A stretch of 44,977 bases of DNA, from positions 1-44,977 of the IMG/VR virus record IMGVR_UViG_3300037155_000207; one strand, 5' to 3'. A program made the translations under genes and the position numbers. Positions within the stretch are counted from its first letter, which is position 1. The number at the start of each line of letters is the position of its first letter. The DNA is from a virus. Positions 1,010 through 44,640 of the stretch are shown piece after piece. Under the pieces are notes generated by a model. That model saw only the letters and a list, made by a program, of their open reading frames with translations. It ran no database searches and was not told the origin of the DNA.

Positions 1010-1196
1010 TCTTAGTAAAAGAGCATGGAGAGAACTTCAATTATCCTTTATCGAAACCTTTAGTAAATTAGATGAAGCTGAAGAATTGAAATTATCTGAA
1101 TTATTAGCCAATGCTAATAAGAATAATCAACCTCAAGGCATCATTAGAGAGACAATAAATTCACCAATTAATAAACAAAACACGGAGAATAAATGA
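999..1196 (+). CDS. Small hypothetical protein
   Basis: A 65-residue acidic, helical protein (KLDEAEELKLSELL) with an Asn/Gln-rich C-terminus. Start and stop overlap both neighbours (11 bases with the upstream gene, 4 with VP1), which supports real, coupled translation. No family recognised. Confidence 0.45.
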   Translation: MQDDLSKRAWRELQLSFIETFSKLDEAEELKLSELLANANKNNQPQGIIRETINSPINKQNTENK

Positions 1197-2275
1197 ACGA
1201 AGAACAAAATGGAACTGCTGCAAGCAAAGTTGAATTGCCAGAAAACATTAAACCGGTTAACGGCTTAAAAGACAATTACCTGATACTAGATCAATATGGT
1301 AATCAACATGAGATGGTGGAAATACCCACATTCCTTTGTGCAATGGGGAATACTTTTCATCCACATCCCGCCTTCATTGTCGATGGAAAATTAAGAAGAA
1401 TATTTATTGGAAAATATCAGGCTTCAATTCTTGATGGTAAATATGTTATTCAAAAGAACGGCATGGTCGCTCATTCAATCAACTTCGATAATTCAAACCA
1501 GGCATGCAATGATCTGAATAACGGATCCTCAATAACAGGGTTCCATCTTATTTCAAATACAGAATGGGCAGTTCTTACCATAATTTCCCATCAGGTGATG
1601 AATGGAGTCAGGGTCCAGGGAAATAATCGCTATGGTAAAGACTTCTCATCTAAAACTATTATGGGGATGCATGAACCGTATCAAAAAGAATTCAAAGATA
1701 ATTGTTTTCCGGCTAGATGGCTTGCCGGGTCTGGAGGAATTGTAACTTCGCACAACGGAAATGAATCCGGGATATATGATTTGAATGGGAATATTTTGGA
1801 ATGGGTCAAAGGCTTACGCCTGAATGACGGCGAAATAAACATTATCCCTGACAATAACTCCGCTATTTCTTTAATCGATGTTTCTAAATCAAGTTCACAA
1901 TGGAAAGCAATACTTGAAGACGGAACTTTGGTAGAACCAGGTACGGAAGGCGCTTTGAAATTTGATGATGAAGGAAGAATATCAAAATTTACCAAAAGAA
2001 ACTGGAGCGGCCACATTTTCAAAGATACAATATGCGCTGATGATGTTTCCCCTGATTGTGCCGGTGTTGAACTACTAAAGAAGCTGACCATATTCCCATC
2101 GGTAACAGGACCTCATGACGATTATTTCTGGTTTGATACTAATGGTGAGTCTATTCCGCTCCGCGGCGGCTATTGGAACGATGGTGCCGGTGCCGGGCTT
2201 CGTGCCCTGAACCTCTACGGTGGACGAGGAGGTGCGAACGGCCACATCGGCTTCCGGGTCGCTTTTGTTCTTTGA
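1193..2275 (+). CDS. DGR variable protein 1 (VP1), C-type-lectin/FGE-sulfatase fold
   Basis: This 360-residue protein is a paralogue of the protein at 24786-25955. Shared blocks are HEMVEIP, RRIFIGKY, SINFDN, ARWLAGSGG, the FGE-sulfatase hallmark DLNGN..EW (about 193-203), GEINIIP, and a C-terminal GFRVAF. FGE-type CLec folds are the usual scaffold of DGR targets, with diversified residues on an exposed ligand-binding face. The last ~37 residues are the variable repeat (2155-2263), aligned without gaps to the template repeat 24 kb away. Unlike its paralogue it has no signal peptide: residues 1-30 are polar. The start is 4 bases inside the preceding gene, with a GGAG 7 bases upstream. Probably a phage receptor-binding or display protein; the ligand is unknown. 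Confidence 0.85.
   Translation: MNEEQNGTAASKVELPENIKPVNGLKDNYLILDQYGNQHEMVEIPTFLCAMGNTFHPHPAFIVDGKLRRIFIGKYQASILDGKYVIQKNGMVAHSINFDNSNQACNDLNNGSSITGFHLISNTEWAVLTIISHQVMNGVRVQGNNRYGKDFSSKTIMGMHEPYQKEFKDNCFPARWLAGSGGIVTSHNGNESGIYDLNGNILEWVKGLRLNDGEINIIPDNNSAISLIDVSKSSSQWKAILEDGTLVEPGTEGALKFDDEGRISKFTKRNWSGHIFKDTICADDVSPDCAGVELLKKLTIFPSVTGPHDDYFWFDTNGESIPLRGGYWNDGAGAGLRALNLYGGRGGANGHIGFRVAFVL
2155..2263 (+). repeat. DGR variable repeat VR1
   Basis: This 109-base segment aligns gap-free with the template repeat at 26366-26474. I count 15 differences: 14 fall on TR adenines (changed to G, T or C) and one is C to A at 2230, a silent third position of a Gly codon. Eighty-one of 82 non-adenine positions are unchanged. 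The 3' end is the constant GC-rich block CTTCCGGGTCGCT, followed by TTTTGTT, which matches VR2 rather than TR, as expected for an IMH versus IMH* difference. Confidence 0.95.
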
Positions 2276-2364
2276 TCTGGTTACTGTCCTCTGGTGTTCT
2301 GTTTTTAATTTTATTGATTGGTAAATATTAAAAGTTTCTTAATCTGCAAACAAACGGAGTCATT

Positions 2365-3249: not shown

Positions 3250-5319
3250 ATGAAGAAAGAAAGGGTTACTAAAAGCAAAACCGGAAAGAAAGGGGAAGTC
3301 ACGAGAGTAATTGATGAAGGAGAATATAAACTTATCTCAATGGATGATATTTATCCATCACCATCTAATCCAAGAACTAATTTTAACCAGGTAGAAGTTG
3401 ATGAAATTGCTTCTTCTATTAAACAGGTTGGAATAATCAGTCCTGTTACTGTCAGAGAGAAAAAGCTAGGAAAGAAGCATTATGAATTAGTTGTTGGAGG
3501 TAAAAGATATCGTTCTGCTATTGTTGCTGAATTAAAGCTGATGCCTTGTGTAATAAAGCTGCTAACCGATCAGGAAGTACTCGAGATCCAGATAATTGAA
3601 AATCTCCATAGATCTGATGTTCATCCCCTTGATGAAGCAAATGGGTATCAGTCCTTAATTAAAAACAACAAATATGATATCCAATCTCTGGTTCAAAAGT
3701 TTGGTAAATCTGATTTCTATATTTATCAAAGATTAAAACTACTTGATCTTATTGCTCCAATTAAAAAACTCTTCTATGAAGACACTATAATTCTTGGTCA
3801 TGCAATATTACTTGCCAGGCTTCAACCCACAGACCAAAAGAAAACCCTCGATGAATTGAAAGATTACAGGGGTAATTTATCAAACGATAATATTCAGTCA
3901 CCTTCAAGATTAAGACAATGGATTGAAGGTAATATAATGATGGATCTCCATAAAGTCAGTTTCAAGAAAGATGATGCTAACCTGGTGCCAGCTGCAGGAG
4001 CTTGTACGGATTGTTCAAAGAGAACCGGTTATAATAAGTATCTCTTCCCGGAATTAGATAAAAAGGATTTCTGTACCGATCCTGAATGCTTCAAGAAAAA
4101 GCTTTCTACACATGCCAATAATATAATTAAGTCATATAAGGATAATAATATCGAATTGGTGAAAGTCAGTGAAAATTATTCCGGAAATAATAAAGAACTC
4201 CTCTATGAAAACAACTATGAAAAAGCGACTGGTAGTAAATGTGATTGTAGTAAAAAAGCTATTATTTGTGACGGCACTGAAACTGGAAAGATAATCGATA
4301 TCTGTACTGATAAGAGCTGCAAGGTTCATCATCCTTATTATTCCTCTTCTTCAGGAGGCAATAAACCTACCCCGGATGAAAGATACAAAAGAAGAATTGA
4401 GATTATCAGTCAACCTGAGTGCATGGAGGTCATAAAACAATCCTGCGTTAACCTGGTTAAAGATGATGAAATATTTATAAATGATATAGAATTGCTGATT
4501 AAAACCTGTATGCGTGGTTTTATGATGCTGGAATCATCAAGAAGGGATTATTTAGTCAAGGAAGTGCTGCAGATAGATCTTACTAAATATGAAAAGATGC
4601 AGAGCATGGAAAAGGTTCAGGAATTATATGATTATGAATTTCAGGATTATCATCTTGATGATGCTGAACTTGGCTTCCTTGATTTTGTATCTGACCATAC
4701 CACTGAAATCAATCTCCTTAAAAGGATACAGTGGTTAATTATCATATTCTCAGAGGCCAGATTGAATATTGAAGGCATCCTGAAAGATGAAAACACTACC
4801 ATCCTTCTTAATAATCTTAAAAAGCTTATTGATGTTGATAAAATCAAAAAAGAAGTAGCTGTTGAATATGATGCCAAACGTGCAAAAACAAAGAAAGGAT
4901 TCTTCAAAAATAACGGCTATGATCCGGACCTGGGAAAGAAAGAATCCGATATCCGGAATAAATGCATGTTTTCTCTGGGGGATGATCTCTATTGCAAACG
5001 TGAGAATGCAATAAATCTTTCAAATCTTATTGCCAAACATCCTGAAGTAGGGTTTAGCAATCATGATTTAATATATAACATAAATTTTGGTAATGCTCAG
5101 ATCTGTTTCAGAAAAGTAACTGCAAAAGATAAATTCCACATAGATGGATTTTCTTTGGATGATTTACCTCTTGTACCCGTGGAAAATATAAAAGATAATA
5201 TTGGTGGATGCAGGGAGACAATTGATAAGGCCATAGAAAAATTATTAAAAGCTTATTCTGCTGATAAACCGGCTAAAGAGAAGAAAGTCTCCGGGAAGAA
5301 GAAAGCGGTGAAGAAATGA
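3250..5319 (+). CDS. ParB-like nuclease/partition-domain protein with Cys clusters
   Basis: This 689-residue protein begins with a ParB/Spo0J N-terminal domain (about 28-120): PSPSNPRTNF, GGKRYRSAI (the GxRR-like box) and ENLHRSDVHPLDEA (the ENxxR box). A KorB-like HTH region follows (about 130-190). The middle holds cysteine pairs (CTDC near 252, CTDPEC near 275, CDC near 335), suggesting zinc binding. The C-terminus is a Lys-rich tail. ParB-domain proteins in phages act in partition, as nucleases or as regulators; which applies here cannot be told. It is the first gene after the tRNA and overlaps the J-domain gene by 4 bases (ATGA). No ParA is seen. Confidence 0.75.
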   Translation: MKKERVTKSKTGKKGEVTRVIDEGEYKLISMDDIYPSPSNPRTNFNQVEVDEIASSIKQVGIISPVTVREKKLGKKHYELVVGGKRYRSAIVAELKLMPCVIKLLTDQEVLEIQIIENLHRSDVHPLDEANGYQSLIKNNKYDIQSLVQKFGKSDFYIYQRLKLLDLIAPIKKLFYEDTIILGHAILLARLQPTDQKKTLDELKDYRGNLSNDNIQSPSRLRQWIEGNIMMDLHKVSFKKDDANLVPAAGACTDCSKRTGYNKYLFPELDKKDFCTDPECFKKKLSTHANNIIKSYKDNNIELVKVSENYSGNNKELLYENNYEKATGSKCDCSKKAIICDGTETGKIIDICTDKSCKVHHPYYSSSSGGNKPTPDERYKRRIEIISQPECMEVIKQSCVNLVKDDEIFINDIELLIKTCMRGFMMLESSRRDYLVKEVLQIDLTKYEKMQSMEKVQELYDYEFQDYHLDDAELGFLDFVSDHTTEINLLKRIQWLIIIFSEARLNIEGILKDENTTILLNNLKKLIDVDKIKKEVAVEYDAKRAKTKKGFFKNNGYDPDLGKKESDIRNKCMFSLGDDLYCKRENAINLSNLIAKHPEVGFSNHDLIYNINFGNAQICFRKVTAKDKFHIDGFSLDDLPLVPVENIKDNIGGCRETIDKAIEKLLKAYSADKPAKEKKVSGKKKAVKK

Positions 5320-24785: not shown

Positions 24786-25955
24786 ATGAAAAATATTATA
24801 AAAATGTCTTTACTTATAATCTTGCTTATATCAGGTTTTGCAAATGCACAGTTGATGGAAGCAATAGATGCTATTCAAGCTCACTTGGCAAGACTTGATA
24901 GCGCCGTATTTGTTCAAGCATCCCCCGGTACAAATCTTGGCCATAACAATTGGTTGATCTATGATAAAAACGGGAACTACCATGAAATGGTAGAAATTCC
25001 CGCTTTTAATTGGGACGCGACAAGTGGATTTTCTTCAACATCATTGCATCCTGCCTTTACAGTTAATGGCGTAAGGAAAAGAATCTTTATAGGCAAATAT
25101 GAGGCATCTTATTTAGGCGGGCATGCAGTAACTCAGGCAAGCGGCTTGGTTGCGCAATCGATAAATTTTGATAATGCAAATGCAACCTGCGACTCTTTGA
25201 ATAATGGTACAACAATAAACGGATTCCACATGGTAACCAACGCAGAATGGGCGGCCATCTGTTTGGTATCTAAAAACATTATGGGATCAACTGAAGTCAA
25301 AGGTAACAATGCCTTTGGCCGGGACTGGTCTGTTGGGACTATTATGGGAATGTGGGAACCGGGAGATTCGGCAAACTTTGTAAATGGCACTTCGCCTGCA
25401 AGGTGGTTGGCTGGCTCCGGCGGAGTTACAACTGCGCATGATGGTGCTTATGGTATCAGAGATTTGAATGGTAACGTTTGGGAATGGAATAAAGGCATGA
25501 GGCTTAACAACGGGGAGATCAATATCATTCCCAACAATGACGCGGCCAATCCATTAGCGGATGTTTCTTCTTCTTCTTTGTTATGGAAAGCAATATTACA
25601 AGACGGTAGTTTAGTTCCCCCTGGTACTGCGCATACATTAAAGGTCAATGCTGCTGGCCAGATTAGTGATACTACAAGTGCAACAAGTAACGCGCATCCT
25701 TTTGAATCTTTTACCTGCGATGCAAGTGTCTCATCTTCATGTGCAGGAGTGGCATTATTAAAAACATTAATGTTATACGCAACCGGATCTGTTCTTGACG
25801 ATTATTTCTGGAGCAATACAGGTATTGAGGCTATTCCGATCCGCGGCGGCAATTGGGGCGATGGTGCCTATGCCGGGCTTCGTGCCCTGCACCTCGGCGA
25901 TGTACGAGGCGGTGCGGACTACGGCCTCGGCTTCCGGGTCGCTTTTGTTTGGTGA
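24786..25955 (+). CDS. DGR variable protein 2 (VP2), exported C-type-lectin/FGE-sulfatase fold
   Basis: This 389-residue paralogue of VP1 carries a Sec signal peptide (MKNIIKMSLLIILLISG, cleavage near NAQ, residue 22), then a short helix, then the FGE-type CLec domain: HEMVEIPAF, RKRIFIGKYEAS, NGFHMVTNAEWAA, DLNGNVWEW (about 223-231), GEINIIPNN, ending GFRVAFVW. The last ~36 residues are the variable repeat (25835-25943). It is followed by avd, TR and RT, giving the classical order VP-avd-TR-RT. An exported DGR target in a phage is unusual and suggests display at the host surface, or an export step in virion assembly. Confidence 0.9.
   Translation: MKNIIKMSLLIILLISGFANAQLMEAIDAIQAHLARLDSAVFVQASPGTNLGHNNWLIYDKNGNYHEMVEIPAFNWDATSGFSSTSLHPAFTVNGVRKRIFIGKYEASYLGGHAVTQASGLVAQSINFDNANATCDSLNNGTTINGFHMVTNAEWAAICLVSKNIMGSTEVKGNNAFGRDWSVGTIMGMWEPGDSANFVNGTSPARWLAGSGGVTTAHDGAYGIRDLNGNVWEWNKGMRLNNGEINIIPNNDAANPLADVSSSSLLWKAILQDGSLVPPGTAHTLKVNAAGQISDTTSATSNAHPFESFTCDASVSSSCAGVALLKTLMLYATGSVLDDYFWSNTGIEAIPIRGGNWGDGAYAGLRALHLGDVRGGADYGLGFRVAFVW
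25835..25943 (+). repeat. DGR variable repeat VR2
   Basis: This 109-base segment differs from TR (26366-26474) at 16 positions, all TR adenines; all 82 non-adenine positions are identical. The 3' end carries the constant block CTTCCGGGTCGCT followed by TTTTGTT, as in VR1. Confidence 0.97.
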
Positions 25956-26011
25956 TTTTCTGTCCTCTGTTCTTTGGATCTCTGTTCCTAATTTAATTTG
26001 GATGGTTTGGC

Positions 26012-26341
26012 TTGAGTGATCTTTTAATTATTGAAAAGTGTATTGATTGTTTCAAATATCTGCATAATGCCCTGAACTACTTTCCAAAATCGGAAAAGTT
26101 TGTTCTGGCCGCAGATATAAGAAATGAGTTCTTTGAAATGCTGTCACTCTTTTTAACCGCGAATAAATCGCGGGACAAAAAGAAATATTTATTCGAAGCT
26201 GATATAAAACTTGATCTTTTAAGATTCAAAATTAGAATAGCAAAAGATCTTAAGCTATTGAATCTGAAACAATACGAAATTTTATCCAGGCAACTCACAG
26301 AAATCGGCAAGATGCTGGGGGGATGGATAAAAAGTGCATAG
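26012..26341 (+). CDS. avd: DGR accessory variability determinant (Avd-like four-helix bundle)
   Basis: This 109-residue protein starts at TTG 26012. It has the Avd pattern: an N-terminal helix with FKYLHNALNYFPKSEKFVLA, FEMLSLFLTANKSRDKK, ADIKLDLLRFKIRIAKDLKLL, and the C-terminal signature YEILSRQLTEIGKMLGGWIK. Avd forms a basic pentamer that binds the RT and TR RNA and is required for mutagenic cDNA synthesis. It lies between VP2 and TR, the standard place. Confidence 0.9.
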   Translation: MSDLLIIEKCIDCFKYLHNALNYFPKSEKFVLAADIRNEFFEMLSLFLTANKSRDKKKYLFEADIKLDLLRFKIRIAKDLKLLNLKQYEILSRQLTEIGKMLGGWIKSA

Positions 26342-26365: not shown

Positions 26366-26474
26366 TCCGATCCGCGGCGGCAATTGGAACAATGGTGCCA
26401 ATGCCGGGCTTCGTGCCCTGAACCTCAACAATGAACGAGGCAATGCGAACAACAACATCGGCTTCCGGGTCGCT
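26366..26474 (+). repeat. DGR template repeat (TR)
   Basis: The 109-base template repeat contains 27 adenines, 22 of them in 11 AAY codons. It aligns gap-free with both variable repeats. It is followed by CTTATT where both VRs have TTTGTT, the expected asymmetry between IMH* (template) and IMH (target). It lies 25 bases after avd and 157 bases before the RT start, and is read as non-coding RNA. An open frame across it (26334-26645) is a by-product of its resemblance to coding DNA. Confidence 0.95.
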
Positions 26475-26631
26475 CTTATTTATAGCCAGAATTTTAATTT
26501 CAAGGAATTAAAACAGAGCAATGAACAAAAGGAGACAATGACCTTGACGATAAATAACCGTCAAAAATATTCGTGCTCTTGCGTGCGGTTAGTAACCGAC
26601 ATACTGGACAATATCGCGCGCGGGACCTTTA
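26475..26631 (+). ncRNA. TR-RT spacer, probable structured part of DGR RNA
   Basis: This 157-base spacer corresponds to the region that in the Bordetella phage DGR is part of the template RNA and is needed to prime and start cDNA synthesis. Two hairpins are visible: TTGACG (26544-26549) with CGTCAA (26559-26564), and CGGTTA-G-TAACCG (about 26586-26598), followed by a GCGCGCG run. Ends of the RNA cannot be placed from sequence alone. Confidence 0.6.
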
Positions 26632-27630
26632 TTGAAAACATATAACAACCTTTATGAGAAAATATTTGAGTTCAACAATCTGCACAAAGCTTTTCTGAAT
26701 GCAAAAAGAAACAAGCGGTTCAAGTACGAGGTAATGGAGTTTGCAAGTAATCTGGAAGAAAATCTTATAACGATACAAAATGAACTGATTTATGAGACTT
26801 ATAAACCATCGCGATATAATGAATTTATTATCAGGGAGCCAAAGGAAAGATTGATTCTGGCTCTTCCATTCAGAGACCGGGTAGTTCACCAGGCAATATG
26901 CGCGGTAATAGAGCCGTTATTTGAGAACACTTTTATAAGTGATTCTTATGCATGCAGGAAAGGCAAAGGAACAATAGCCGGAGTGAAACGAGTTGAGAAA
27001 TTTGTAAAAAAGGAACTGAGAAATGAAGAAGTGTTTTGCTTGAAGATGGATATACAAAAATATTTTTATTCAATTGATCATGCAACCATAAAGAAGTTGC
27101 TAAAAAGGAAAATCAGATGCAAGAAAACATTAAATCTTCTAAATGTAATTATCGATTCAACCGACAATCCTGGTATTCCCGTTGGAAATCTAACAAGCCA
27201 ATTATTTGCGAATATATATCTGAATCAAGTTGATCATTTTATTAAAGAGACCTTAAGAATTAAACACTATGTACGGTACATGGACGACATGATTATTCTA
27301 AGTAAAAATAAGAAGCAACTGTGGGTCTGGTTAAGTGAGATTAGAAACTTTCTGAATACAGAATTGAGGTTAACATTAAATAAGAAAACATCTGTTTTTA
27401 ACATTAAGCGCGGGATTGATTTTCTTGGCTATAGACAATTTCCGCAACATAGAATTTTAGGAAAAAGAGTGATGGTTAAGAACATTAGAAAGTTCAAGAA
27501 ATTTGTTAAAGTAAATATTGGCATGGATAAAATACAGAAATCGCTTGCGAGTCTGAACGGACTTTGTAAACATTGCAATTCAGAAAAGTTTATGAGAAAT
27601 ATTAAAAATATTTTAGAGGTAGCCGGATGA
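26632..27630 (+). CDS. DGR reverse transcriptase
   Basis: This 332-residue RT starts at TTG 26632. It has the group-II-intron-like RT fold without thumb extensions: N-terminal KTYNNLYEKIFEFNNLHKA, LPFRDRVVHQAI, the catalytic MDIQKYFYSID (Asp140), GNLTSQ (residues 185-190, the DGR hallmark in place of QGxxSP of other RTs) and YMDD (216-219). It copies TR RNA into adenine-mutated cDNA that replaces VR sequence. Its stop overlaps the next small ORF (ATGA). Confidence 0.97.
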   Translation: MKTYNNLYEKIFEFNNLHKAFLNAKRNKRFKYEVMEFASNLEENLITIQNELIYETYKPSRYNEFIIREPKERLILALPFRDRVVHQAICAVIEPLFENTFISDSYACRKGKGTIAGVKRVEKFVKKELRNEEVFCLKMDIQKYFYSIDHATIKKLLKRKIRCKKTLNLLNVIIDSTDNPGIPVGNLTSQLFANIYLNQVDHFIKETLRIKHYVRYMDDMIILSKNKKQLWVWLSEIRNFLNTELRLTLNKKTSVFNIKRGIDFLGYRQFPQHRILGKRVMVKNIRKFKKFVKVNIGMDKIQKSLASLNGLCKHCNSEKFMRNIKNILEVAG

Positions 27631-44281: not shown

Positions 44282-44640
44282 TCAGTAACAAAGTGACAAA
44301 GTGATAAGTGCAGTGATAAGTTTTGTACCAACTTATCACTGTTTTTTGTGGGAAATTGAGCCAAAATCAAACAAAAGTGACAAAGTGATAAATATTTCCT
44401 TATGAGATTGATGAAAATAAAATAAATATATACATATAATACTATACTGGTATATGTGTGTATCTTATTATCCCACCGGGGCCAATAGTATAGAGAAACT
44501 TTGTCACTTTGTCACTTTCTTTGGAATTCGGATCAAAAACGCAGTATTTGCAGTGACAACTTGGTTTTCAACTTATCACTGTCAGTGACAAGTTTGTCAC
44601 TGGGGTAGGTTGGGTAGGTCAGTCAGGTGACAACTATAAA
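44282..44640 (+). repeat. AGTGAYAA repeat array, candidate replication origin
   Basis: Twelve exact AGTGAYAA octamers lie within 310 bases. Seven are forward, starting at 44292, 44300, 44312, 44376, 44384, 44552 and 44584. Five are reverse, at 44333, 44501, 44509, 44573 and 44594. One degenerate forward copy is at 44626. They flank a very AT-rich stretch (44392-44470). Iterons plus an AT-rich unwinding region directly after a primase-helicase gene is the layout of P4-like and plasmid origins. Confidence 0.75.

Follow-up and report, generated by a model that had tools for sequence, protein, structure and literature searches.

Evidence that a single phage DGR has diversified a second gene 24 kb from its template repeat

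Phage DGRs are mainly read as host-range switches. The stretch of DNA analyzed here (the window, 44,977 nucleotides, positions 1 to 44,977 of IMG/VR record IMGVR_UViG_3300037155_000207) carries one such system, and a gene about 24 kb away, in a block of early-type genes, ends in a repeat that resembles the template repeat (TR) of that system. Does the DGR write this distant gene in addition to its usual target, and, if so, what might the second product be for?

The record is a temperate lambda-type phage with a GpA terminase, lambda portal, capsid, lysozyme, tape measure, and tyrosine recombinase. At 24.8–27.6 kb lies a standard DGR cassette composed of VP2, Avd, TR, and the reverse transcriptase (RT). 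The RT is of the DGR type and is accompanied by Avd (PF00078 and PF22296), and related RTs also adjoin TR/VR pairs. The remote gene, VP1, is the fifth gene of a rightward block that begins beside an S24-type repressor, with an HTH gene on one side and a ParB-like gene on the other. Because the gene overlaps its upstream neighbor in this block, VP1 should be made early. The features are as follows.

1193–2275, plus strand: VP1, remote DGR target gene, a 360-aa ORF; TaqVP-like C-type-lectin, no signal peptide; its ATG shares bases with the stop codon of the preceding early gene at 999–1196
2155–2269, plus strand: VR1, remote variable repeat, 115 b, with 17 mismatches to TR, 15 at adenines
2248–2269, plus strand: IMH-like 3′ end of VR1, GCTTTTGTT versus GCTCTTATT in TR
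2277–2301, plus strand: CTG array 3′ of VR1, four CTG with a 7–8 nt period
3250–5319, plus strand: ParB-like protein of the early block, 3′ of VP1 (PF02195, E 3.6e-22; PF17762; ParB-like PHROGs)
24786–25955, plus strand: VP2, proximal DGR target gene, an ORF with a signal-peptide-like N-terminus, MKNIIKMSLLIILLISGFANAQ
25835–25950, plus strand: VR2, proximal variable repeat, with 18 mismatches to TR, 17 at adenines
25960–25984, plus strand: CTG array 3′ of VR2, three CTG
26012–26341, plus strand: Avd accessory protein (PF22296 bAvd, E 1.8e-29)
26366–26480, plus strand: TR, template repeat, with ten AAY codons in the VP frame
26632–27630, plus strand: DGR reverse transcriptase (PF00078, E 1.9e-23)

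A 31.3-kb contig (L063) matches window positions 1–28039 at 100% (both contig ends seen, 15.5 kb compared) and reaches 3.25 kb further left, where it carries a second tyrosine recombinase and, divergently oriented, a Peptidase_S24 repressor. The left edge of the window (position 1) was apparently trimmed at a gene start, with the repressor and recombinase lying just outside it (L063:1-3252). Since L063 shows this second recombinase just beyond the edge, the element, as pieced together from L063 and the window, is flanked by two integrase genes. A megablast search of the first 22 kb of the window against phage records gave no match, and a promoter scan of the early block returned no more sites than shuffled sequence.

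The match between TR and VR1 was examined by blastn, which pairs VR1 at 2155–2263 with TR at 26366–26474 over 109 b with 15 mismatches, 14 at TR adenines and one a C-to-A change at TR position 26441. This result reproduces the repeat at the end of VP1 that was described in an earlier note made by reading the sequence. Over 115 b, VR1 is changed at 15/28 adenine sites versus 2/87 others (Fisher p 1.6e-9), and VR2 at 17/28 versus 1/87. TR and VR1 lie on the same strand, 24,211 b apart from start to start; with VR1, 24.2 kb off, the TR has a second VR that lies beyond the structural module. A chance repeat was considered as the origin of the match and rejected. Also rejected was a different TR elsewhere as the source of the VR1 differences, the possibility by which the earlier note proposed to judge its reading: a scan of the whole window found a single TR, and blastn of the 3.25 kb upstream (L063) against the window gave no match.

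The same note had suggested comparing VR1 and VR2 across related phages, and a cousin phage, IMGVR 3300037155_000153 (L003), allows this comparison. Its VP1 is 66% and its RT 93% identical to those of the window, and its layout matches, with VP1 22.9 kb from TR and VP2 adjoining TR. The cousin has a Mu-type portal; RT, Avd, TR, VP1, and VP2 are common to both phages, along with two weak matches only. The two TRs differ at seven sites, none of them an adenine in either TR; six are internal, and the seventh is at the extreme 5′ edge. In both genomes, VR1 carries the letter of its own phage's TR at 6/6 internal sites. Between window and cousin, VR1 varies at 17/28 adenine sites against 1/80 others (p 1e-11), and VR1 and VR2 within one phage show the same pattern of adenine-site differences. 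Because VR1 tracks its own TR at all six sites, and because the two VR1s differ so predominantly at adenines, we conclude that the distant TR has re-templated VR1 after the window and cousin diverged. With the adenine bias described above, these data sustain the claim that one TR diversified a gene about 24 kb away in a separate early block, and they suggest retrohoming into VR1 in trans.

The 3′ ends of the repeats were then compared. C-to-T and A-to-G changes in the IMH are common to all four VRs of the window and cousin (TTTTGTT in VR versus TCTTATT in TR), and an IMH/IMH* distinction is thus apparent from the sequences. Directly 3′ of VR1 and VR2 lie the CTG arrays; a chain of four CTG occurs in 0.05% of random 70-mers. 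Across the window and related phages, a phased chain of at least two CTG lies directly 3′ of 28/33 VRs versus 0/33 TRs, with a background of 3.4%. These arrays hold three to five CTG with a 7–8 nt period, and in Lagaffe gp40 the array lies inside the coding sequence. The CTG array is therefore a candidate DGR target-recognition element, and a literature search found no description of it. A GRNA-loop hairpin 3′ of the VR, the BPP-1 type, is common though not universal in DGRs. A GATA-loop hairpin of this known type comes after the CTG array in many genomes, and the GRNA-loop hairpin is present in G015 and Dulem37. No stable hairpin with a GRNA loop was found 3′ of VR1 or VR2 in the window, where the CTG array is kept. 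The IMH-type changes and CTG array common to both repeats, together with their independent adenine changes, agree with the proposal that one RT and one TR serve two targets. When IMG/VR was scanned for the IMH motif, the only matches were the two known relatives and a chance one, L468, which has no DGR gene.

The C-type-lectin fold seen in TaqVP, a DGR protein, is predicted for VP1 with high confidence, and the variable residues fall near the C-terminus. The AF2 model (pLDDT 92.6, from a 96-sequence alignment) matches TaqVP (5vf4) with a Foldseek E of 3.4e-35 and a TM of 0.84, and a profile match to 5vf4 (E 4.6e-127) identifies it as the closest solved structure. By a hydropathy check, which is not a signal-peptide predictor, a strongly hydrophobic N-terminus is found in window VP2 alone among 33 DGR target proteins and in 0/41 remote VPs. 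VP2 opens with a signal-peptide-like segment, MKNIIKMSLLIILLISGFANA followed by Q (window 24786–24851), whereas the homologous domain in the cousin is the C-terminus of a 999-aa GDSL-containing, tail-fiber-like protein. The two targets had been described as display proteins of different cellular fate. A difference in fate is plausible, given that VP2 alone has the signal-peptide-like N-terminus and that cousin VP2 sits in a fiber-like protein, but "display" is probably the wrong word for VP1, a protein that looks cytosolic.

To place the arrangement among other phages, fetched DGR phage records were scanned for TR-VR pairs, which were present in 28. A remote second VR occurs in 5/28: the window, the cousin, G015 (a Desulfosporosinus acididurans prophage), Faecalibacterium phage Lagaffe (whose second VR lies 9.6 kb from TR, in the early-region gene gp40), and Dulem virus 37. 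Cousin VP1 follows an N6-methylase-like gene; window VP1 has its ParB-like neighbor and no clear methylase beside it. The second target is not universal, because the proximal VR alone is seen in two relatives that are closer by RT, G037 (scanned over about 40 kb) and G036 (a 26.7 kb fragment).

Further loci were collected by scans with the remote proteins of G015, Lagaffe, and Dulem37 as queries. These comprise 58 remote-type VP loci (VP closest to the remote type) in Bacillota prophages, 0/58 lying within 4.5 kb of an RT; 79 proximal-type VPs that lie within this distance of one; and 25 proximal-type VPs without an RT in reach, most cut by a contig end and about seven not. Because sampling was seeded with remote types and the tree described below omits proximal-type VPs without a visible RT, these counts are not estimates of frequency. 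An RT turned up elsewhere in 31/47 records, and in 27 of the 31 VP/RT pairs, which include a few in which one prophage counts twice, at least 75% of TR-VR mismatches fall at adenines. Between close relatives, most changes fall at TR-adenine sites of the remote VR; L323 and L330, for example, differ at 15/26 TR-adenine sites, 1/87 other remote-VR sites, and 21/1022 sites outside. The neighbors of 41 remote VPs include methylases, ParB, PAPS reductase, MazF, Mom, SSB, ERF, and RecU. On a tree of 75 VPs, exactly two proximal/remote changes are required, one for a Bacillota clade and one for the window and cousin, and a smaller tree agrees. Since window and cousin VP1 group with VP2, not with the remote proteins of Lagaffe (gp40), Dulem37, and G015, window VP1 represents, by its placement in the tree, an independent, second origin of a remote target. 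The Bacillota clade includes cultured hosts (Desulfosporosinus, Blautia, Sporofaciens, Paenibacillus, and Faecalibacterium). Separately, in one Lachnospiraceae MAG contig (L370), about 1.2 kb separates two remote-type VP genes, which may form a tandem remote target.

Could the likeness of VR1 to TR reflect duplication of VP2 or gene conversion instead of retrohoming? VP1 and VP2 are full-length paralogues, as the earlier note held, and sisters in the tree. However, the proteins are 53% identical, yet the repeat is nearly identical at non-adenine sites in both phages. Differences between VR1 and VR2 also fall at 17/28 adenine sites versus 1/80 others, with five adenine sites changed in VR1 alone and seven in VR2 alone, which indicates that the two repeats mutated independently at these sites. 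VP1 as a plain copy of VP2 was rejected on this concentration of differences at adenines, and the comparisons between window and cousin argue that VR1 was rewritten from TR and not inherited unchanged from a duplicated VP2. We therefore consider duplication or conversion extremely improbable. That VR1 is a fossil, diversified once and now frozen, is also quite improbable. It shows no difference between the window and L063, the sole near-identical record, but VR2 is equally identical there, so this comparison shows no DGR activity at population level and says nothing about freezing; VR1 went on tracking its own TR after the cousin diverged, and RT, Avd, and TR are intact.

A different objection concerns the product: VP1 could be a second virion receptor-binding protein, an alternative tail tip whose position in the early block is incidental. 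It shares its fold and family with the proximal target, matching phrog_2889 (E 3e-75) and, weakly, the tail family phrog_5302, in addition to its identity with VP2. However, remote genes lie amid early, DNA-modification, or accessory genes and not beside tail genes in 5/5 annotated cases, and the neighbors of the 41 remote VPs are likewise early-type, with two amidase and three cell-wall-hydrolase matches as the only late-type ones. VP1 is without the tail-fiber-like N-terminal part of cousin VP2, and the remote VPs of Bacillota form their own clade, apart from the proximal VPs of the same phages. A second tail tip is thus unlikely.

We consider it highly probable that VP1 is genuinely a second target for the single DGR, an apparently cytosolic early binder, with VP2 as the late target. 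In the proposed mechanism, the RT-Avd complex would copy TR RNA into cDNA, making its errors at adenines, and this cDNA would replace both the nearby VR2 and VR1, which lies on the same strand at a distance of 24 kb. Targeting would rely on the sequence that TR and VR have in common and on the IMH-like 3′ end, probably with help from the CTG array 3′ of each VR. VP1 would be a stand-alone, apparently cytosolic C-type-lectin binder made early in infection, and VP2 the usual late target, exported or tail-linked and produced along with the tail and lysis genes. We infer early expression and intracellular action of VP1, which is most likely an early, cytosolic, diversifiable binder in counter-defense or superinfection and not a second tail tip. 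More tentatively, it may bind a variable host or competitor factor, as counter-defense or superinfection control.

Two-VR phage DGRs are already known, though the arrangement is rarely described, and the novelty claimed in the earlier note was overstated, given that distal non-structural second targets appear in PMC8008677 and PMC12629997. The Quimbyvirus DGR (Benler 2021, PMC8008677) has two C-type-lectin targets, the second distal in a non-structural, defense-related island. By description, this is the arrangement of the window, one phage DGR with a distal non-structural second target; unlike in the window, the second target in Quimbyvirus lies on the opposite strand, and the RT there is divided among three frames. 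Similarly, by description, four gut prophage species have a second VR far from the RT, near counter-defense genes such as a DNA methyltransferase; the available portion of that text (PMC12629997, Nature 2025) gives no family, phylogeny, or mechanism for it. Faecalibacterium phages Lagaffe, CP11, and Lelie have two VRs from one DGR (2024, PMC11792537), and both VRs vary across cognate genomes for Lagaffe_CP and CP11 (PMC11792537); Lagaffe gp40 belongs to the Bacillota remote clade, whereas window VP1 has a separate origin. The BPP-1 (Mtd) system shares with the window the RT, Avd, TR, VR, IMH logic, and C-type-lectin target, but has a single tail-protein target and a GRNA-loop hairpin 3′ of VR. 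The BPP-1 DGR can be retargeted in trans and edits targets across the E. coli chromosome (PMC12875486), and the distance between TR and VR should thus be no obstacle. TaqVP of Thermus aquaticus, whose fold VP1 resembles, is described as one variable protein of a BPP-1-like cassette (PMC6328139), whereas the window has two targets. In gut phage DGRs with tentaclins (PMC10743442), one TR serves two C-lec target genes, but both lie within one cassette, the targets differ in topology, and one is an Ig-domain tentaclin. Standard RT-centered DGR surveys miss remote targets (PMC8144416). Our studies add evidence that the remote site is re-templated, a pattern seen across a whole clade, the existence of two origins, and a candidate cis element.

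If the second target is made early and apparently inside the cell, the same engine diversifies something besides adsorption, and the arrangement points to a fast-evolving phage protein that acts within the infected cell. It is conceivable, though we advance it with reserve, that phages evolved an early, intracellular, DGR-diversified binder at least twice, in one case as a long-lived clade amid DNA-modification and host-takeover genes: an antibody-like counter-defense (or superinfection) factor that shares its mutation engine with the tail tip. With one large Bacillota clade that has cultured hosts, and with the independent recurrence here, the binding partner of the remote VPs becomes a testable question.

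Two minor observations concern the phages themselves. An imperfect inverted repeat of 82 nt, 72% complementary, lies near the right edge of the window (44311–44392 and 44500–44581). In the cousin, the 666-aa product of L003:9645-11645 looks secreted, and its C-terminus is like type IX secretion sorting domains, which we take as a hint of a Bacteroidota/Ignavibacteriota-type host for that phage.
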